Assembly (NCBI GenBank): GCA_021790425.1 | Contig: JAJYEA010000005.1 | Span: 1 to 64,000 of the forward strand | Reading direction: 5' to 3' | Origin: Thermoplasmata archaeon | GTDB lineage: Archaea > Thermoplasmatota > Thermoplasmata > Lutacidiplasmatales > UBA184 | DNA length: 64,000 nt | In this document: one piece after another, positions 33,833-48,072 of the stretch | Numbering within the stretch: the first letter of the stretch is position 1 | Layout of the letters: each line of letters opens with the position of its first letter | Notes under the pieces: generated by a model | The model's database searches: none | Seen by the model: only the letters and a program-made list of their open reading frames with translations | What the model was told of the DNA's origin: nothing | Position numbers and translations under genes: made by a program

Positions 33833-34150
33833 TTACAGAAAGCGGCTCAGGTGTTCTTCGACGATCTCTTGGGGATAGGCCCCCACGATACGGTCCACGA
33901 GCTTGCCCTCCTTGTAGATTAGGAGGGTAGGGATGCTCATGATGCCGAGCCGCTGAGCGGTCTCCATGTTCTCATCGGAGTTGAGCTTCCCGAAGGCGAC
34001 CTTTCCGGTGTACTTCTGGGCCAGACGTTCGACGATGGGCGAGATCATGCGGCAGGGTCCGCACCAGGGCGCCCAGACGTCGATCATCGCGACCGGATTG
34101 GTCCGCGAGAAGTTCTCGAAATCGTTGTCGGTGACGACCAGCACACTCAT
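33833..34150 (-). CDS. Thioredoxin
   Basis: MIDVWAPWCGPCRMISPIVERLA...IMSIPTLLIYKEGKLVDRIVGA; ATG 34150. Confidence 0.95.
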   Translation of the reverse strand: MSVLVVTDNDFENFSRTNPVAMIDVWAPWCGPCRMISPIVERLAQKYTGKVAFGKLNSDENMETAQRLGIMSIPTLLIYKEGKLVDRIVGAYPQEIVEEHLSRFL

Positions 34151-34191: not shown

Positions 34192-34692
34192 CTAGGCCGG
34201 GAGGACGAGTTCGCCGCCGGACTTTTGGTTCGAAGGTACGCGTCGGGTCGCGACCTTCTTGGTCTTCCAGAAGACCTCGGCGAAGGCCTGGACGCTGGAA
34301 AGGAGGTCGTTCGCGGCCTCCATGCTGTACTCCTGGCGGGCGCGTGACGCCTGCTTCATGATCTTGAAGACGAGCTCCGGGACCTCGGGATTCTGCTTCA
34401 CCATGTCCGCCGTGAAGTAGTCTCCCCAGATCACGCGAACCTCGTGCTTGACACGCTCCGCGTGGGCTTCCTTCGTGGCGGTGTAGCGGGCGAGCTTGGC
34501 CCGGAGGTTGGTCTCTTCCTCGGGCTTGGCGGGGGCCTTCAGCTCCGCGGCCAGCTGGTTCATCCGAAGGACGGTGAGCGCTGCGATCTGAGCCTCGTGC
34601 GGGTCGTAGATGCCACACGGGACATCGCAGTGCGCGTAGACAGGCTGGGGTCTCCCAAAGAGGGTCACCACTCGGGTCATCATGGGCGACAT
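34192..34692 (-). CDS. sodN: Nickel-type superoxide dismutase (Ni-SOD)
   Basis: Ni-hook HCDVPCGIYDP after an about 20-residue leader, then VIWGDYF and VFWKTKK, matching bacterial SodN landmarks (HCDLPCGVYDP, VLWSDYF, IFWETKK). Confidence 0.92.
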   Translation of the reverse strand: MSPMMTRVVTLFGRPQPVYAHCDVPCGIYDPHEAQIAALTVLRMNQLAAELKAPAKPEEETNLRAKLARYTATKEAHAERVKHEVRVIWGDYFTADMVKQNPEVPELVFKIMKQASRARQEYSMEAANDLLSSVQAFAEVFWKTKKVATRRVPSNQKSGGELVLPA

Positions 34693-34757
34693 GATCCCGT
34701 GAGAGCCATTGAAACATAAAAGGGTGACCTATTTTGGACCCTGGACCTCGTTCCGAG

Positions 34758-35120
34758 ATGCGCCACCATTATCGTACTCGGACGTCTGTGCCGGTCGTGC
34801 GGCGACGGCGTCTGCGGTTCCGGGTGCAGGACTGGAGCATGGCCCCGACCGTCGTTCCGGAGGAGGACATCGAGGTCGACCCCCACGCGTACGACGATTC
34901 GTCGCCCGTCCCGGGCGACGTGATCGTGTTGCAGGACCCCGAAGGTTCCGGAAAGAAGCTCCTGAAGCGCATCGAGCGCGTGGAGAGCGCCGGGGGTGTG
35001 ACCCAGCTCTACGTGACGGGGGACAACCCGCTCCGGAGCCGGGACAGTCGTCACTTCGGTCCGGTCCCGTTGGACCGGGTGGTGGGGAAGGTGACCACCC
35101 CACTGGCGGCGCGAGAGTAG
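34758..35120 (+). CDS. sodX: Ni-SOD maturation protease (S24/S26 signal-peptidase-like)
   Basis: Ser motif QDWSMAPTV, PGDVIVLQDPEGSGKKLLKRI with candidate catalytic Lys, and GDNPLRSRDSRHFGPV; divergent from and adjacent to sodN. Confidence 0.85.
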   Translation: MRHHYRTRTSVPVVRRRRLRFRVQDWSMAPTVVPEEDIEVDPHAYDDSSPVPGDVIVLQDPEGSGKKLLKRIERVESAGGVTQLYVTGDNPLRSRDSRHFGPVPLDRVVGKVTTPLAARE

Positions 35121-35146: not shown

Positions 35147-35803
35147 CTACGCGTACCCGAACTGCCGCTTGGCGAACTCGCTCATCTTGTCCGGTCCCCA
35201 GGGAGGGTCCCAGACGACGTCGACCACCGCCATGTCACCGCCGAGCACCTCGTCGGCGATACGACGGACCTCCTCGACCAGTATCTCGGCCACGGGGCAC
35301 CCCGGGCTCGTCATGGTCATCTGGATGCTCAGCTTTCCCTCCGGCGTCCAGGACATCCCGTAGATGAGCCCCAGGTCCACGATGTTCATGGGGATCTCCG
35401 GGTCGAAGACCTTCTTCAGCGCCTTTCGGACGCTTGCCTCCTTCTCGGAGGGGGAGGCATCCGCCTGGGTCGGAGTGATGACGGGGGGTTTCGAGTCGAC
35501 CTCCTCGGGGACGTTGGGTCCGGTGACCTTGAACGCCGGCCCCTCTGCGCCCAGCACACAGTCCACGGTGGCGTCGTCGAGGTAGCGGTGGCTCAGGGAA
35601 TCCACCAGGAAGTTGAGTCCCCCGACCTCGATCTTCTCGTCGTCGGCCTTGCCGGTGTCCAAGCTCATGTGGATGGTCGGGTAGATCCCCGCGACGACGT
35701 AGAGCCGGACGTCCATCGGCTTGGTCTGCTGGGCGAGGATTCCCTTCAACTGCTCGATAGCGAGGGGGGTGACCGTGAGCTTGACCGGCGCCGAATCGGG
35801 CAT
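35147..35803 (-). CDS. Fusion of degenerate A-type carrier (HesB/IscA-like) domain and MIP18/DUF59 (SufT-like) domain
   Basis: N-terminus VKLTVTPLAIEQLKGILAQ...GLNFLVDSLSHRYLDDATVDCVLGAEGPAFKVTGPN; C-terminus VRKALKKVFDPEIPMNIVDLGLIYGMSW...MTSPGCPVAEILVEEV...VWDPPWGPDKMSEFAK. Confidence 0.75.
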   Translation of the reverse strand: MPDSAPVKLTVTPLAIEQLKGILAQQTKPMDVRLYVVAGIYPTIHMSLDTGKADDEKIEVGGLNFLVDSLSHRYLDDATVDCVLGAEGPAFKVTGPNVPEEVDSKPPVITPTQADASPSEKEASVRKALKKVFDPEIPMNIVDLGLIYGMSWTPEGKLSIQMTMTSPGCPVAEILVEEVRRIADEVLGGDMAVVDVVWDPPWGPDKMSEFAKRQFGYA

Positions 35804-39516: not shown

Positions 39517-42102
39517 TCAGGGACCGACCGGAGGATCCGGGGGTCGCCGGTCCCGTCGAAGAGTGGTCGCGATCGCGAGGACGGCCAGGAATCCCGAGGG
39601 GGCCAGCAAGAGGGCCCACTGGAGGGGTCCGAGCGTCGTGGGCTGAGCACTATGGCTGCTCGAGCATCCGCCCGCGGAGACCACGTTCACCGTGCCTACC
39701 ACGGAGATGTTCTCTCCCAGCGCATCCGTGGCGGTGAGGTTGAGCCGATAGGTGCCGTTGGCTGAGTACGTGTGGTTGGTGGAGGTGGCACTCGTGGTGA
39801 CGGGGGAGCTATGGTCGCCGAAGTCCCATCGTAGCGCGTACGGCCCCAGTCCTCCGCTCACGTTGGCCGAGAAGAGGGTCGGCACCCCGGCCACGACACA
39901 TCCCCACGGAAGCAGTCTTGCCGTGAGAACGGGCCGCTGGGTCACGTTGACCAGGACCCACGCCTCCGCGAACTGACCGTCTCCCGGTGCGTCGGTCACC
40001 TTCAGCGTCACGTTGTAGACCGCGGAGTTGTTGAACTGGAAGGTGGCATTTTGACCGGCGGAGGTGTTGCCCGGTCCCAGATCCCAGGTGAAGTTGTAGG
40101 GGGCTTGCCCCCCGGTGACGGTCCCCTGAAAGTCGACCCGGAGGGGAGCGTATCCCTGGGTCGGGGTGGCCGCCGCGGTCACGACCAGGAGGGGAGCGGT
40201 CACGAGGAGCGAATGGCTGTAGTTCCGGGACTGGCCGGAGCCATCGGAAACGTTGAGACGGACCCGGTAGTCGTTGCTCGCGTTGAACTGGTGCACCGGA
40301 TCGGCGGCGTGGGAGACCGGCGATCCATCTCCGAACGTCCACGTATACGCGTAGGGTAAGGTCCCGTTCGACACGGTGGACTGGAACGTCACGGCCACCG
40401 GTGCCTGGCCCCCGGGGGGAGAGGCGGAGAACAGCACCGAGAAGGACCCGGGAGGTGACGAGACCGTCACGTTCACCGAGGCCGTCGAGGTCGCCCCGGT
40501 GCCGTCAGTGACGACGACGCGCGCCGCGTAACTCCCGGGCCCCAGGTAGGAATGGACGGGGTCCGCCAGGAGGGAGGTGGCGCTGTCGCCGAAGTTCCAT
40601 GCGAACTTGAGCGGGGGCGTCCCGCCCGAGACGTTGGCCCAGAAGCTCACGTTCCCGCCCACGAGGGCGTTCCGGGGCGCGGCGGCCGCCTGGGCGGACG
40701 GAAGGAGGGTGACGTTGACGTGGACCGACGCGGAGGCCGTGGCGCCGGTCTGGTCGGTGGCGGTCACCGTCGCCGTGAGGACGGTGGCCTTCGTCACCGA
40801 GTACGTGTGGGACACGTTCGCTTGCGGGGAGGTCGTGTTGTCGCCAAAGCTCCAGGAGTAGCTGAACGGGGGTTGTCCTCCGCTGGCGAGGCTCGTGAAT
40901 GCAACGGATTGTCCGGAATCGATCGCCGTGGGGGTCCCCGAGGCGCTCACCGAGAACGTCGGCTCGAAGCCCCAGGTGTCCGACTCGTACGTACCATTGG
41001 ACTCCCCCCCAAAAAGGATGGCCGGCCCCGAGCCCATGGGAGGGGCGAACATCGCACCGTCCCGGGAAGAGGGTCCTCCCGAGGCCGATATCTCGCTCCA
41101 CTGGCCGCCGTGGAAGGCCCAGGTGTCGCCGATATCGTTCGAGGCCCCGTTGCCCCCGAAGAGGATGATGGACTGCAACGCCGGGTCCCAGAACATGGCC
41201 GCGGCCGACCGGGGAGGAGGGGACAGGCTCAGGGAACTCGTGATGTTCTTCCACTGACCGCCCTGGAAGGTCCAGGTGTCTCCCAAGGTGGACGACCCGG
41301 TATACCCCCCAAAGAGCAGCACATAGCCGCCGACCGGGTCGTAGGCCATCCCCGCAGAGCTGCGGGCGGACGGGGACTGGGTGCTGCTGACCGAGGACCA
41401 GCCCGCCGAAGCGGTGAACGAGTAGGTCCCCGCGACGTACGTGTTGCAGGTCCCCGAGAGCACCGCGAAGGATGTGCATCCACCGAAGAGGAGGAGCCCT
41501 CCCGCTGGAGGGTCGTCGGACATCGTGGCCGAGAGGAGCGCGGGGGGGGCGGTACCGAGGGTGTTCTGAGCCCAGGATCCGCCCGAGAAGACCCACGTGT
41601 CCCCCGCGGGGCAGCCGGTCAGGCCCTCGCAACCCCCATAGAGCACCGCTTCCGAAGAAGAGGAGTCGTACGCGAAGGAGGGGTCCGCCCGGGCGGTCAC
41701 CGAGGAGGACGAGGAGATCTCGTTCCAGCCGTGGGCGGTGGAGAGGTTCCAGGTGTCGCCGTCCACCTGGGCGCCGTTCTCGCCGCCGAAGAGCACGTCG
41801 TAGCCGCTTGCGGCATCATACACCATCCCACCGTAGGCACGCGCCGCGGGAGGGGACGGGTAGGTGGAGGTCAGGTCCTTCCAGCTCCCGGAGATTCCGG
41901 CGGCGGTGGCCGCGGGGCGAGCGCCGTGGGTCTGCGATAACCGGGCGGCAGGGGCGGGGCTCGGGCCGAGGGTAGGTAAGAAGAGGGGCGCGAGGAGGGC
42001 GGAAGAGATCACGAAGAGCGCGATGACCTGGGAAGGGGTCAGCGGATCCCCCAACGAACGACCCTTGAGAGGCATCTCTCCGAGTACAGTCGCCTCGCTC
42101 AC
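39517..42102 (-). CDS. Kelch-repeat / PKD-domain surface protein with C-terminal TM
   Basis: Kelch-like repeats (AYGGMVYDAASGYDVLFGGENG...GDTWNLS; SSAGMAYDPVGGYVLLFGGYTG...GDTWTF), then PKD repeats (YSWSFGDNTTSPQANVSHTYS; FAWNFGDSATSLLADPVHSYLGPGSY). Confidence 0.88.
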   Translation of the reverse strand: MSEATVLGEMPLKGRSLGDPLTPSQVIALFVISSALLAPLFLPTLGPSPAPAARLSQTHGARPAATAAGISGSWKDLTSTYPSPPAARAYGGMVYDAASGYDVLFGGENGAQVDGDTWNLSTAHGWNEISSSSSVTARADPSFAYDSSSSEAVLYGGCEGLTGCPAGDTWVFSGGSWAQNTLGTAPPALLSATMSDDPPAGGLLLFGGCTSFAVLSGTCNTYVAGTYSFTASAGWSSVSSTQSPSARSSAGMAYDPVGGYVLLFGGYTGSSTLGDTWTFQGGQWKNITSSLSLSPPPRSAAAMFWDPALQSIILFGGNGASNDIGDTWAFHGGQWSEISASGGPSSRDGAMFAPPMGSGPAILFGGESNGTYESDTWGFEPTFSVSASGTPTAIDSGQSVAFTSLASGGQPPFSYSWSFGDNTTSPQANVSHTYSVTKATVLTATVTATDQTGATASASVHVNVTLLPSAQAAAAPRNALVGGNVSFWANVSGGTPPLKFAWNFGDSATSLLADPVHSYLGPGSYAARVVVTDGTGATSTASVNVTVSSPPGSFSVLFSASPPGGQAPVAVTFQSTVSNGTLPYAYTWTFGDGSPVSHAADPVHQFNASNDYRVRLNVSDGSGQSRNYSHSLLVTAPLLVVTAAATPTQGYAPLRVDFQGTVTGGQAPYNFTWDLGPGNTSAGQNATFQFNNSAVYNVTLKVTDAPGDGQFAEAWVLVNVTQRPVLTARLLPWGCVVAGVPTLFSANVSGGLGPYALRWDFGDHSSPVTTSATSTNHTYSANGTYRLNLTATDALGENISVVGTVNVVSAGGCSSSHSAQPTTLGPLQWALLLAPSGFLAVLAIATTLRRDRRPPDPPVGP

Positions 42103-46785: not shown

Positions 46786-48072
46786 ATGGGACGCGCGAAG
46801 GCTACGGCGGAATGGAACCCGCTGCGCCGCGTAGTGGTCCGGCGACCCGGGCTCGAGGCTTTCTTTGGGCTCCTGGACCCTTTCTCCTCCCTCTACGAGC
46901 GTGTCTTCAGCCTGGAGCGTGCCCAACGGGAGCACGACGAGCTCGTCCACACCCTCCGCCGGGGATTCGGGGTGACCGTCCAGTATCTCGACGAGCTGAT
47001 GCTCGAGGCGGCCGGTCGGCACCACGACGTCCTGGACGAGATGGTGCGGATGGCCACCGAATCGATCCTCTTCAACGGCCCGGGGTCCCAGCGGGCCCGG
47101 CGGGAGCTCATCGGGAACCTGCCCCAGATGGACCGCGAGGTCCTCCTCTCGATCATCATGCTCGCCCCTTCCATCTCCTTCATCAAGAAGCGGGGAGCGC
47201 GGAACATCGAGCCGTTCACGACCCTCCGGGTCCCCCTGACGAACCTGTTCTTCATGCGCGACCAGCAGGCGGTCGGGGACAAGGGCATCATCATCTCCCG
47301 GATGGCCAAGCCCCAGCGCCGGCGGGAGACGCAGATCACCTCCTTCGCGTGGCGGGCCATCGGGGAAGCCCCCGTGATGACGGTGTCCCGAGGGACGTTC
47401 GAGGGGGGGGACTTCCTTCCCTGTGGCGACTTCGCTCTGATCGGCACCGGCGACCGGACGAGCCCGGCGGCGGTCCAGGAGATACTGGCCCAGGGGATCT
47501 CCTTCCCCGAGGTGGTCGTGGTCCACCAGCCCCGGCACCCGCTCCTCGGCACGAACGACCCGATGGTCAACATGCATCTCGACACCTACCTCAACTTCCC
47601 CGGGGACGGCCTTGCGGTGGGCTACCCGGAGATGCTCACCGCCGCACGGGCCGAGGTCTACCGGAGGACCTCCGAGGGCCGCTACCGGCGGGTCCGCCAG
47701 ACGCGGCTCCTCCGCTACCTGGAGGAGCAGCGCTTCCGCCTGATCCCCATCACCACGCTCGAACAGATGTGCTACGCGACCAACTTCCTGACCGTGCGGA
47801 ACCGTTCCATCGTGGTCCCCGAGGTGGGCACGAACGCAGAGAAGGTGCTGGCCAACCTGCACCGGGCGGCCGAGGTCAACCCGGCGAAGTACCAGCGGCT
47901 CTTCCAGCGCGCCGTCCAGGATTTCAACGAGCTCCGGTCCACGGGCACGTTCTTCCCCAACAAGAAGGTCGCGCGCGACTTCGGGATCGAGGCGACCCGA
48001 GTCCCGCTCTCGAACATCACTGGGGCCTTCGGGGGAGCGCACTGCCTGACGTCGACCCTAGAACGGGCCTAG
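46786..48072 (+). CDS. arcA: Arginine deiminase
   Basis: VPLTNLFFMRDQ, GTFEGGDFLPCG, NMHLDTYLN and GGAHCLTSTLER active-site motifs. Confidence 0.92.
   Translation: MGRAKATAEWNPLRRVVVRRPGLEAFFGLLDPFSSLYERVFSLERAQREHDELVHTLRRGFGVTVQYLDELMLEAAGRHHDVLDEMVRMATESILFNGPGSQRARRELIGNLPQMDREVLLSIIMLAPSISFIKKRGARNIEPFTTLRVPLTNLFFMRDQQAVGDKGIIISRMAKPQRRRETQITSFAWRAIGEAPVMTVSRGTFEGGDFLPCGDFALIGTGDRTSPAAVQEILAQGISFPEVVVVHQPRHPLLGTNDPMVNMHLDTYLNFPGDGLAVGYPEMLTAARAEVYRRTSEGRYRRVRQTRLLRYLEEQRFRLIPITTLEQMCYATNFLTVRNRSIVVPEVGTNAEKVLANLHRAAEVNPAKYQRLFQRAVQDFNELRSTGTFFPNKKVARDFGIEATRVPLSNITGAFGGAHCLTSTLERA

Follow-up and report, generated by a model that had tools for sequence, protein, structure and literature searches.

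Streptomyces SodN (PDB 1T6U and 1Q0D) and SodX (S. coelicolor SCO5254/SCO5255), a nickel-containing superoxide dismutase (Ni-SOD) and its partner, have the nickel hook HCDxPCGxYDP in common with the locus described here. In the Streptomyces enzyme, which is the only Ni-SOD with solved structures to turn up in this analysis, the leader is removed by a cognate peptidase (PMC3919588), as we also predict for the archaeal protein, and Glu17 and Arg47 form a hydrogen-bonded network with His1 (PMC5722923). Archaeal Ni-SODs have been published as well. Sheridan et al. 2022 (PMC9287336) report Ni-SOD as a trait of Lutacidiplasmatales, and in marine group II it occurs to the exclusion of Fe/Mn-SOD (Qu et al. 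2023, PMC10783094). Transfer of Ni-SOD between domains is likewise in print (Sutherland et al. 2021, Geobiology, as cited in PMC10783094). Since Ni-SOD was known beforehand from Lutacidiplasmatales and marine group II, an archaeal Ni-SOD is less surprising than an earlier note on this DNA had supposed.

The sodN and sodX genes

We analyzed a 64,000-nucleotide stretch of a Thermoplasmata contig (hereafter the window) that belongs to a 2.50-Mb metagenome-assembled genome (MAG), estimated as 98.6% complete and 0.26% contaminated. The sodN gene (34192..34692, minus strand), read from the ATG at 34692, encodes a 166-residue precursor whose predicted mature chain has 146 residues. Its product is a Ni-SOD: the protein scores 140.8 bits (4.5e-41) against Pfam profile PF09055, whose cut-off is 25, and 140.8 bits against NCBIfam profile TIGR02753, whose cut-off is 90. 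The AlphaFold model (pLDDT 88) has a four-helix bundle fold, and the 16 PDB entries that match it at E <= 0.001 are without exception NiSOD crystal structures. This identification is far above chance, because the fold matches only NiSOD at that threshold and the gene pair recurs at nearly all related loci. The Streptomyces chains have the same bundle, with a TM-score of up to 0.94 normalised to the target, and are about 30-34% identical to the window protein over the aligned core of the fold match.

The divergent sodX gene (34758..35120, plus strand, the stop codon ending at 35120) starts at an ATG at 34758 and encodes a protein of 120 residues with SMAPT and GDNPLRSRDSR motifs. A TTG at 34734 was dropped as the start, because it would fall within a TATA-like element. 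SodX scores above the cut-off of PF10502 (59.8 bits), but at 54.6 bits it falls short of the cut-off of 63.25 for TIGR02754 (sodX), which is nevertheless its best NCBIfam match; the protein is therefore labelled SodX-like by context and not by profile. The assignment still fits the neighbourhood, the catalytic dyad and the predicted fold. Ser27 and Lys70, which make up this dyad, are invariant in 53 aligned SodX proteins, so the loss of catalytic residues that the earlier note feared has not occurred. The Lys is also found in every protein of a wider set of 163, where a single gapped row lacks the Ser. The SodX model (pLDDT 89) retrieves type I signal peptidases in a fold search. SodX has in common with members of that family, such as E. 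coli LepB and S. aureus SpsB, the fold, the Ser/Lys dyad and an AxA-type site, but differs from them in its small size, in its lack of a membrane anchor and in having a single inferred substrate protein.

The two genes are separated by 65 bp (34693..34757), in which one TATA-like element faces each gene, at about -29 to -25 for sodN (CTTTTATG) and at -28 to -23 for sodX (TATTTT, recognized by eye and in the window alone). Among 109 upstream regions of the family's sodN set, the A+T fraction reaches 0.96-0.98 at -28 to -25, well above most other positions. This peak lies where the TATA box of a leaderless archaeal transcript is expected, which supports our choice of sodN start codon, and the putative TATA boxes fit leaderless transcription. 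A thioredoxin gene (33833..34150, minus strand; 111.1 bits against TIGR01068, over the cut-off) starts 41 bp past the end of sodN. We reject it as a component of the module, because its synteny with sodN extends to four congeners and not to the rest of the family. The earlier note had thus correctly described the hook behind a leader of about 20 residues, the S26-like protease 65 bp away and the thioredoxin directly downstream, and its interpretation as a Ni-SOD with a cognate protease is well supported by the profiles, folds, ligands, dyad and adjacency. The pair is a real and intact Ni-SOD module that is very probably functional.

The sodX gene adjoins sodN at nearly all related loci, in both orientations, a tally that counts loci and not independent genomes, since some genomes were fetched twice by different routes. 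It lies divergently upstream at almost every other locus of the family and, as in the window, at a locus of the actinomycete Nonomuraea (L164). In other Thermoplasmata families, as in marine group II, Patescibacteria and Novosphingobium, sodX follows sodN on the same strand. Three loci had at first looked convergent; re-scoring showed L059 and L085 to be divergent, and L056 has no clear orientation. Within its genus the window is an exception, as in four congeners (L165, L166, L167 and L169) sodX is upstream of sodN on the same strand. The window SodX branches outside three congeners, which group at 97/75 in the SodX tree, and divergence is the rule elsewhere in the family; the divergent layout is therefore most likely the older state, kept in the window and inverted in the congeners. 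At L167, an ORF of 212 residues and unknown function lies between sodX and sodN. One MAG (G380), a possibly mixed bin with 64% completeness, carries two pairs (L032/L168 and L037/L169), of which one matches the genus type and the other the wider-family type. Adjoining sodX in the window is a gene for a fusion of IscA/HesB-like and SufT/MIP18-like domains (35147-35803, minus strand), which is kept in the genus.

Predicted leader removal and the nickel site

The nickel hook HCDVPCGIYDP (His1, Cys2, Asp3, Pro5, Cys6 and Tyr9; 34600..34632, minus strand) follows a leader of exactly 20 residues, MSPMMTRVVTLFGRPQPVYA (34633..34692, minus strand), and leaders of the congeners are also 20 residues long. 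Among 154 distinct SodN sequences, His1, Cys2, Asp3, Cys6 and Tyr9 are invariant. The precursor passes from MSPMMTRVVTLFGRPQPVYA directly into HCDVPCGIYDPHEAQ, so that the leader ends in VYA/HCD, where the slash marks the predicted cut. Signal peptidase I cleaves according to the AxA rule. Nearly all loci, from two domains, have an AxA/HCD site; among those listed, the residue preceding His1 is Ala with one Gly exception, and the residue at -3 is mostly Val or Ala. This site and the bacterial precedent cited in PMC3919588 suggest that SodN would be cleaved at A/HCD. Leader length and sequence differ greatly between loci, and marine group II has short, often acidic leaders; for these reasons the leaders do not resemble export signals. 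A strongly hydrophobic segment is absent from all 77 SodX sequences tested. Together with the dyad, the fold and the adjacency of the genes, these observations make cytoplasmic maturation by SodX the best reading, with the cut itself predicted.

Glu17 and Arg47 of the Streptomyces enzyme are replaced by Ala17 and His47 in the window SodN, so the His1-Glu17-Arg47 triad is missing, and the kinetics of the window enzyme may differ as a consequence. This second-shell triad is a feature of a subgroup and does not define the Ni-SOD family: Glu17 and Arg47 always co-occur, in 8 of the 154 sequences, all of them in the actinobacterial-type clade. Thermoplasmata proteins combine Ala, Ser or Gly at residue 17 with a residue 47 that is almost always His, whereas marine group II proteins have Ala17/Glu47. 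Marine group II also has an adjacent sodX, and Ni-SOD and Fe/Mn-SOD exclude each other there too (PMC10783094), but it differs from the window locus in its hook (HCDGPCGVYDP), in the position of sodX downstream on the same strand and in its shorter tail.

That tail extends the C-terminus by about 20 residues beyond the FWxTK motif (34195..34254, minus strand), and a beta hairpin is predicted for it in the window protein. It is common to Thermoplasmata, three Patescibacteria and Novosphingobium, is absent from actinobacterial NiSOD and amounts to just 2 residues in the Nonomuraea proteins. Thermoplasmata Ni-SODs might conceivably constitute a distinct subtype, marked by the lack of Glu17/Arg47, a mostly small residue 17 with His47 and the extension, but we regard this proposal as tentative and rather doubtful. 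In the literature searched, which covered few subscription papers, we found no discussion of either the missing Glu17/Arg47 pair or the tail. Both are simple, testable contrasts with the Streptomyces enzyme, which also differs in its promoters, those of the window being archaeal. If the His47 type does hold His1 in another way, these proteins would be naturally occurring variants in which the role of the axial histidine network, a matter of dispute, could be probed.

Distribution and ancestry of the pair

Sod_Ni is found in 118 of 400 sampled genomes of the class, with a patchy distribution (14 of 104 genera); within the window's own family it is present in 88 of the 95 genomes sampled. One genome placed in this family (f1) has a locus that, across 1.4 kb, is identical to a locus of Ca. 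Lutacidiplasma silvani (L111), and the family therefore belongs to Lutacidiplasmatales. The Ni-SOD reported for that order (PMC9287336) thus comes from the same archaeal family; the window genome represents another genus, in which the pair lies beside thioredoxin and aRF1. In the SodN tree, the window protein groups with its congeners (99/97) inside a family clade (100/99). Closest to this clade are three Patescibacteria sequences, which join it at 100/97. The SodX tree has the same family clade, and in both trees marine group II forms a clade of its own. In the phylogenies that the earlier note proposed, both genes thus follow one clade within the family. Bacteria were sampled sparsely in these trees (Patescibacteria, two Nonomuraea, one Novosphingobium and one Streptomyces), which limits what they say about donor and direction of transfer.

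Three other explanations of the pair deserve consideration. The protein that we call SodX could be some other S26-like peptidase, with a different enzyme maturing SodN. Its score under the TIGR02754 cut-off agrees with this idea, as does the fact that the link between protease and substrate is drawn by inference for archaeal pairs. However, sodX keeps its place next to sodN nearly everywhere, in Thermoplasmata, marine group II, Patescibacteria, Novosphingobium and one Nonomuraea locus, and does so across different orientations. It is also the sole PF10502 protein found in the genome, and the SodN cut site matches the AxA specificity of signal peptidases, so a different maturation enzyme seems very unlikely. 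Even less credible is an origin of the pair from a bacterial contig through contamination or mis-binning, a danger that the earlier note had raised. Described Ni-SODs are mostly bacterial and SodX resembles a bacterial signal peptidase, but the genes around the pair encode aRF1, Cbf5, A-type ATPase subunit C, an acetylornithine-type aminotransferase and a SufT-like Fe-S protein, of which the first three in particular speak against a bacterial contig. The order aRF1-trx-sodN...sufT-argD-cbf5 is kept in four genomes of the same genus from independent assemblies, which already refutes mis-binning, and the presence of SodN across most of the family, its clustering with congeners and TATA boxes of archaeal type argue in the same direction. 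We are left with virtually no doubt that the pair belongs to this genome. Carriage by a phage or plasmid is also rejected: phage records gave no match, no case was confirmed in viral contigs, and a search of plasmid records returned two distant matches, one of them on an 11.85-Mb replicon.

The remaining explanation concerns the direction of inheritance, namely that Ni-SOD is an ancestral archaeal gene in Thermoplasmata and that some Patescibacteria obtained it from archaea. A clade restricted to Thermoplasmata is not rejected (p-AU 0.18), and the three Patescibacteria sequences are placed next to the family's clade in the tree. By contrast, a single SodN clade of Thermoplasmata and marine group II is rejected (p-AU 0.002), presence in the class is patchy, and a bacterial source has been inferred for marine group II (PMC10783094). 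An ancestral archaeal gene is accordingly an unlikely, though not negligible, explanation. The trees and AU tests indicate an old pair that has been passed down vertically in the family, and more than one inter-domain exchange in the wider gene family; the pair was probably gained through an old exchange with bacteria. The horizontal acquisition favored by the earlier note is thus supported solely as an ancient event, since both genes follow one clade within the family. The pair is a lineage trait, ordinary for its archaeal family, and not an odd bacterial import.

Superoxide defence in the host

We searched the genome for Fe/Mn-SOD, as the earlier note had advised, and also for superoxide reductase and Cu/Zn-SOD; none was found in the assembly at its 98.6% completeness, and control genomes show that the searches work. 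The genome encodes a NicO-type nickel transporter. In the 400-genome class sample, Ni-SOD and Fe/Mn-SOD seldom occur together: only 7 genomes have both enzyme types, of 118 with Ni-SOD and 113 with Fe/Mn-SOD (Fisher p 5e-12, without correction for relatedness).

A mechanism can be proposed on the precedent of Streptomyces and cyanobacterial work, from which cleavage, nickel binding, hexamer formation and activity are extrapolated. SodN would be made as a precursor carrying its 20-residue leader, and SodX, acting as a soluble minimal type I signal peptidase through its Ser27/Lys70 dyad, would cut after VYA and thereby free the N-terminal histidine. The HCxxPC hook would then bind one nickel per subunit, and the homohexamer would dismutate superoxide. 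The ancestor of the family presumably gained the pair, probably by the exchange discussed above, and would have passed it on vertically with archaeal promoters. We hold with high confidence that the locus is the organism's superoxide defence, a SodX-matured Ni-SOD gained by the family ancestor and vertically inherited since.

Other genes in the window may be of separate interest. An arginine deiminase gene (arcA) lies at 46786-48072 (plus strand), and arcA is reported for Lutacidiplasmatales (PMC9287336), where it is tied to acid tolerance. At 865-24332 (plus strand) lies a series of very large ORFs, the longest of 2935 residues, whose products have PKD and Ig-like domains and are likely surface proteins. 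The gene at 39517-42102 (minus strand) encodes a protein of 861 residues that contains Kelch repeats as well as several PKD domains.

The sodN-sodX locus thus represents a complete Ni-SOD module, the only superoxide defence detected for this lineage of terrestrial archaea, and its SodX is conserved in active site and in position across two domains.
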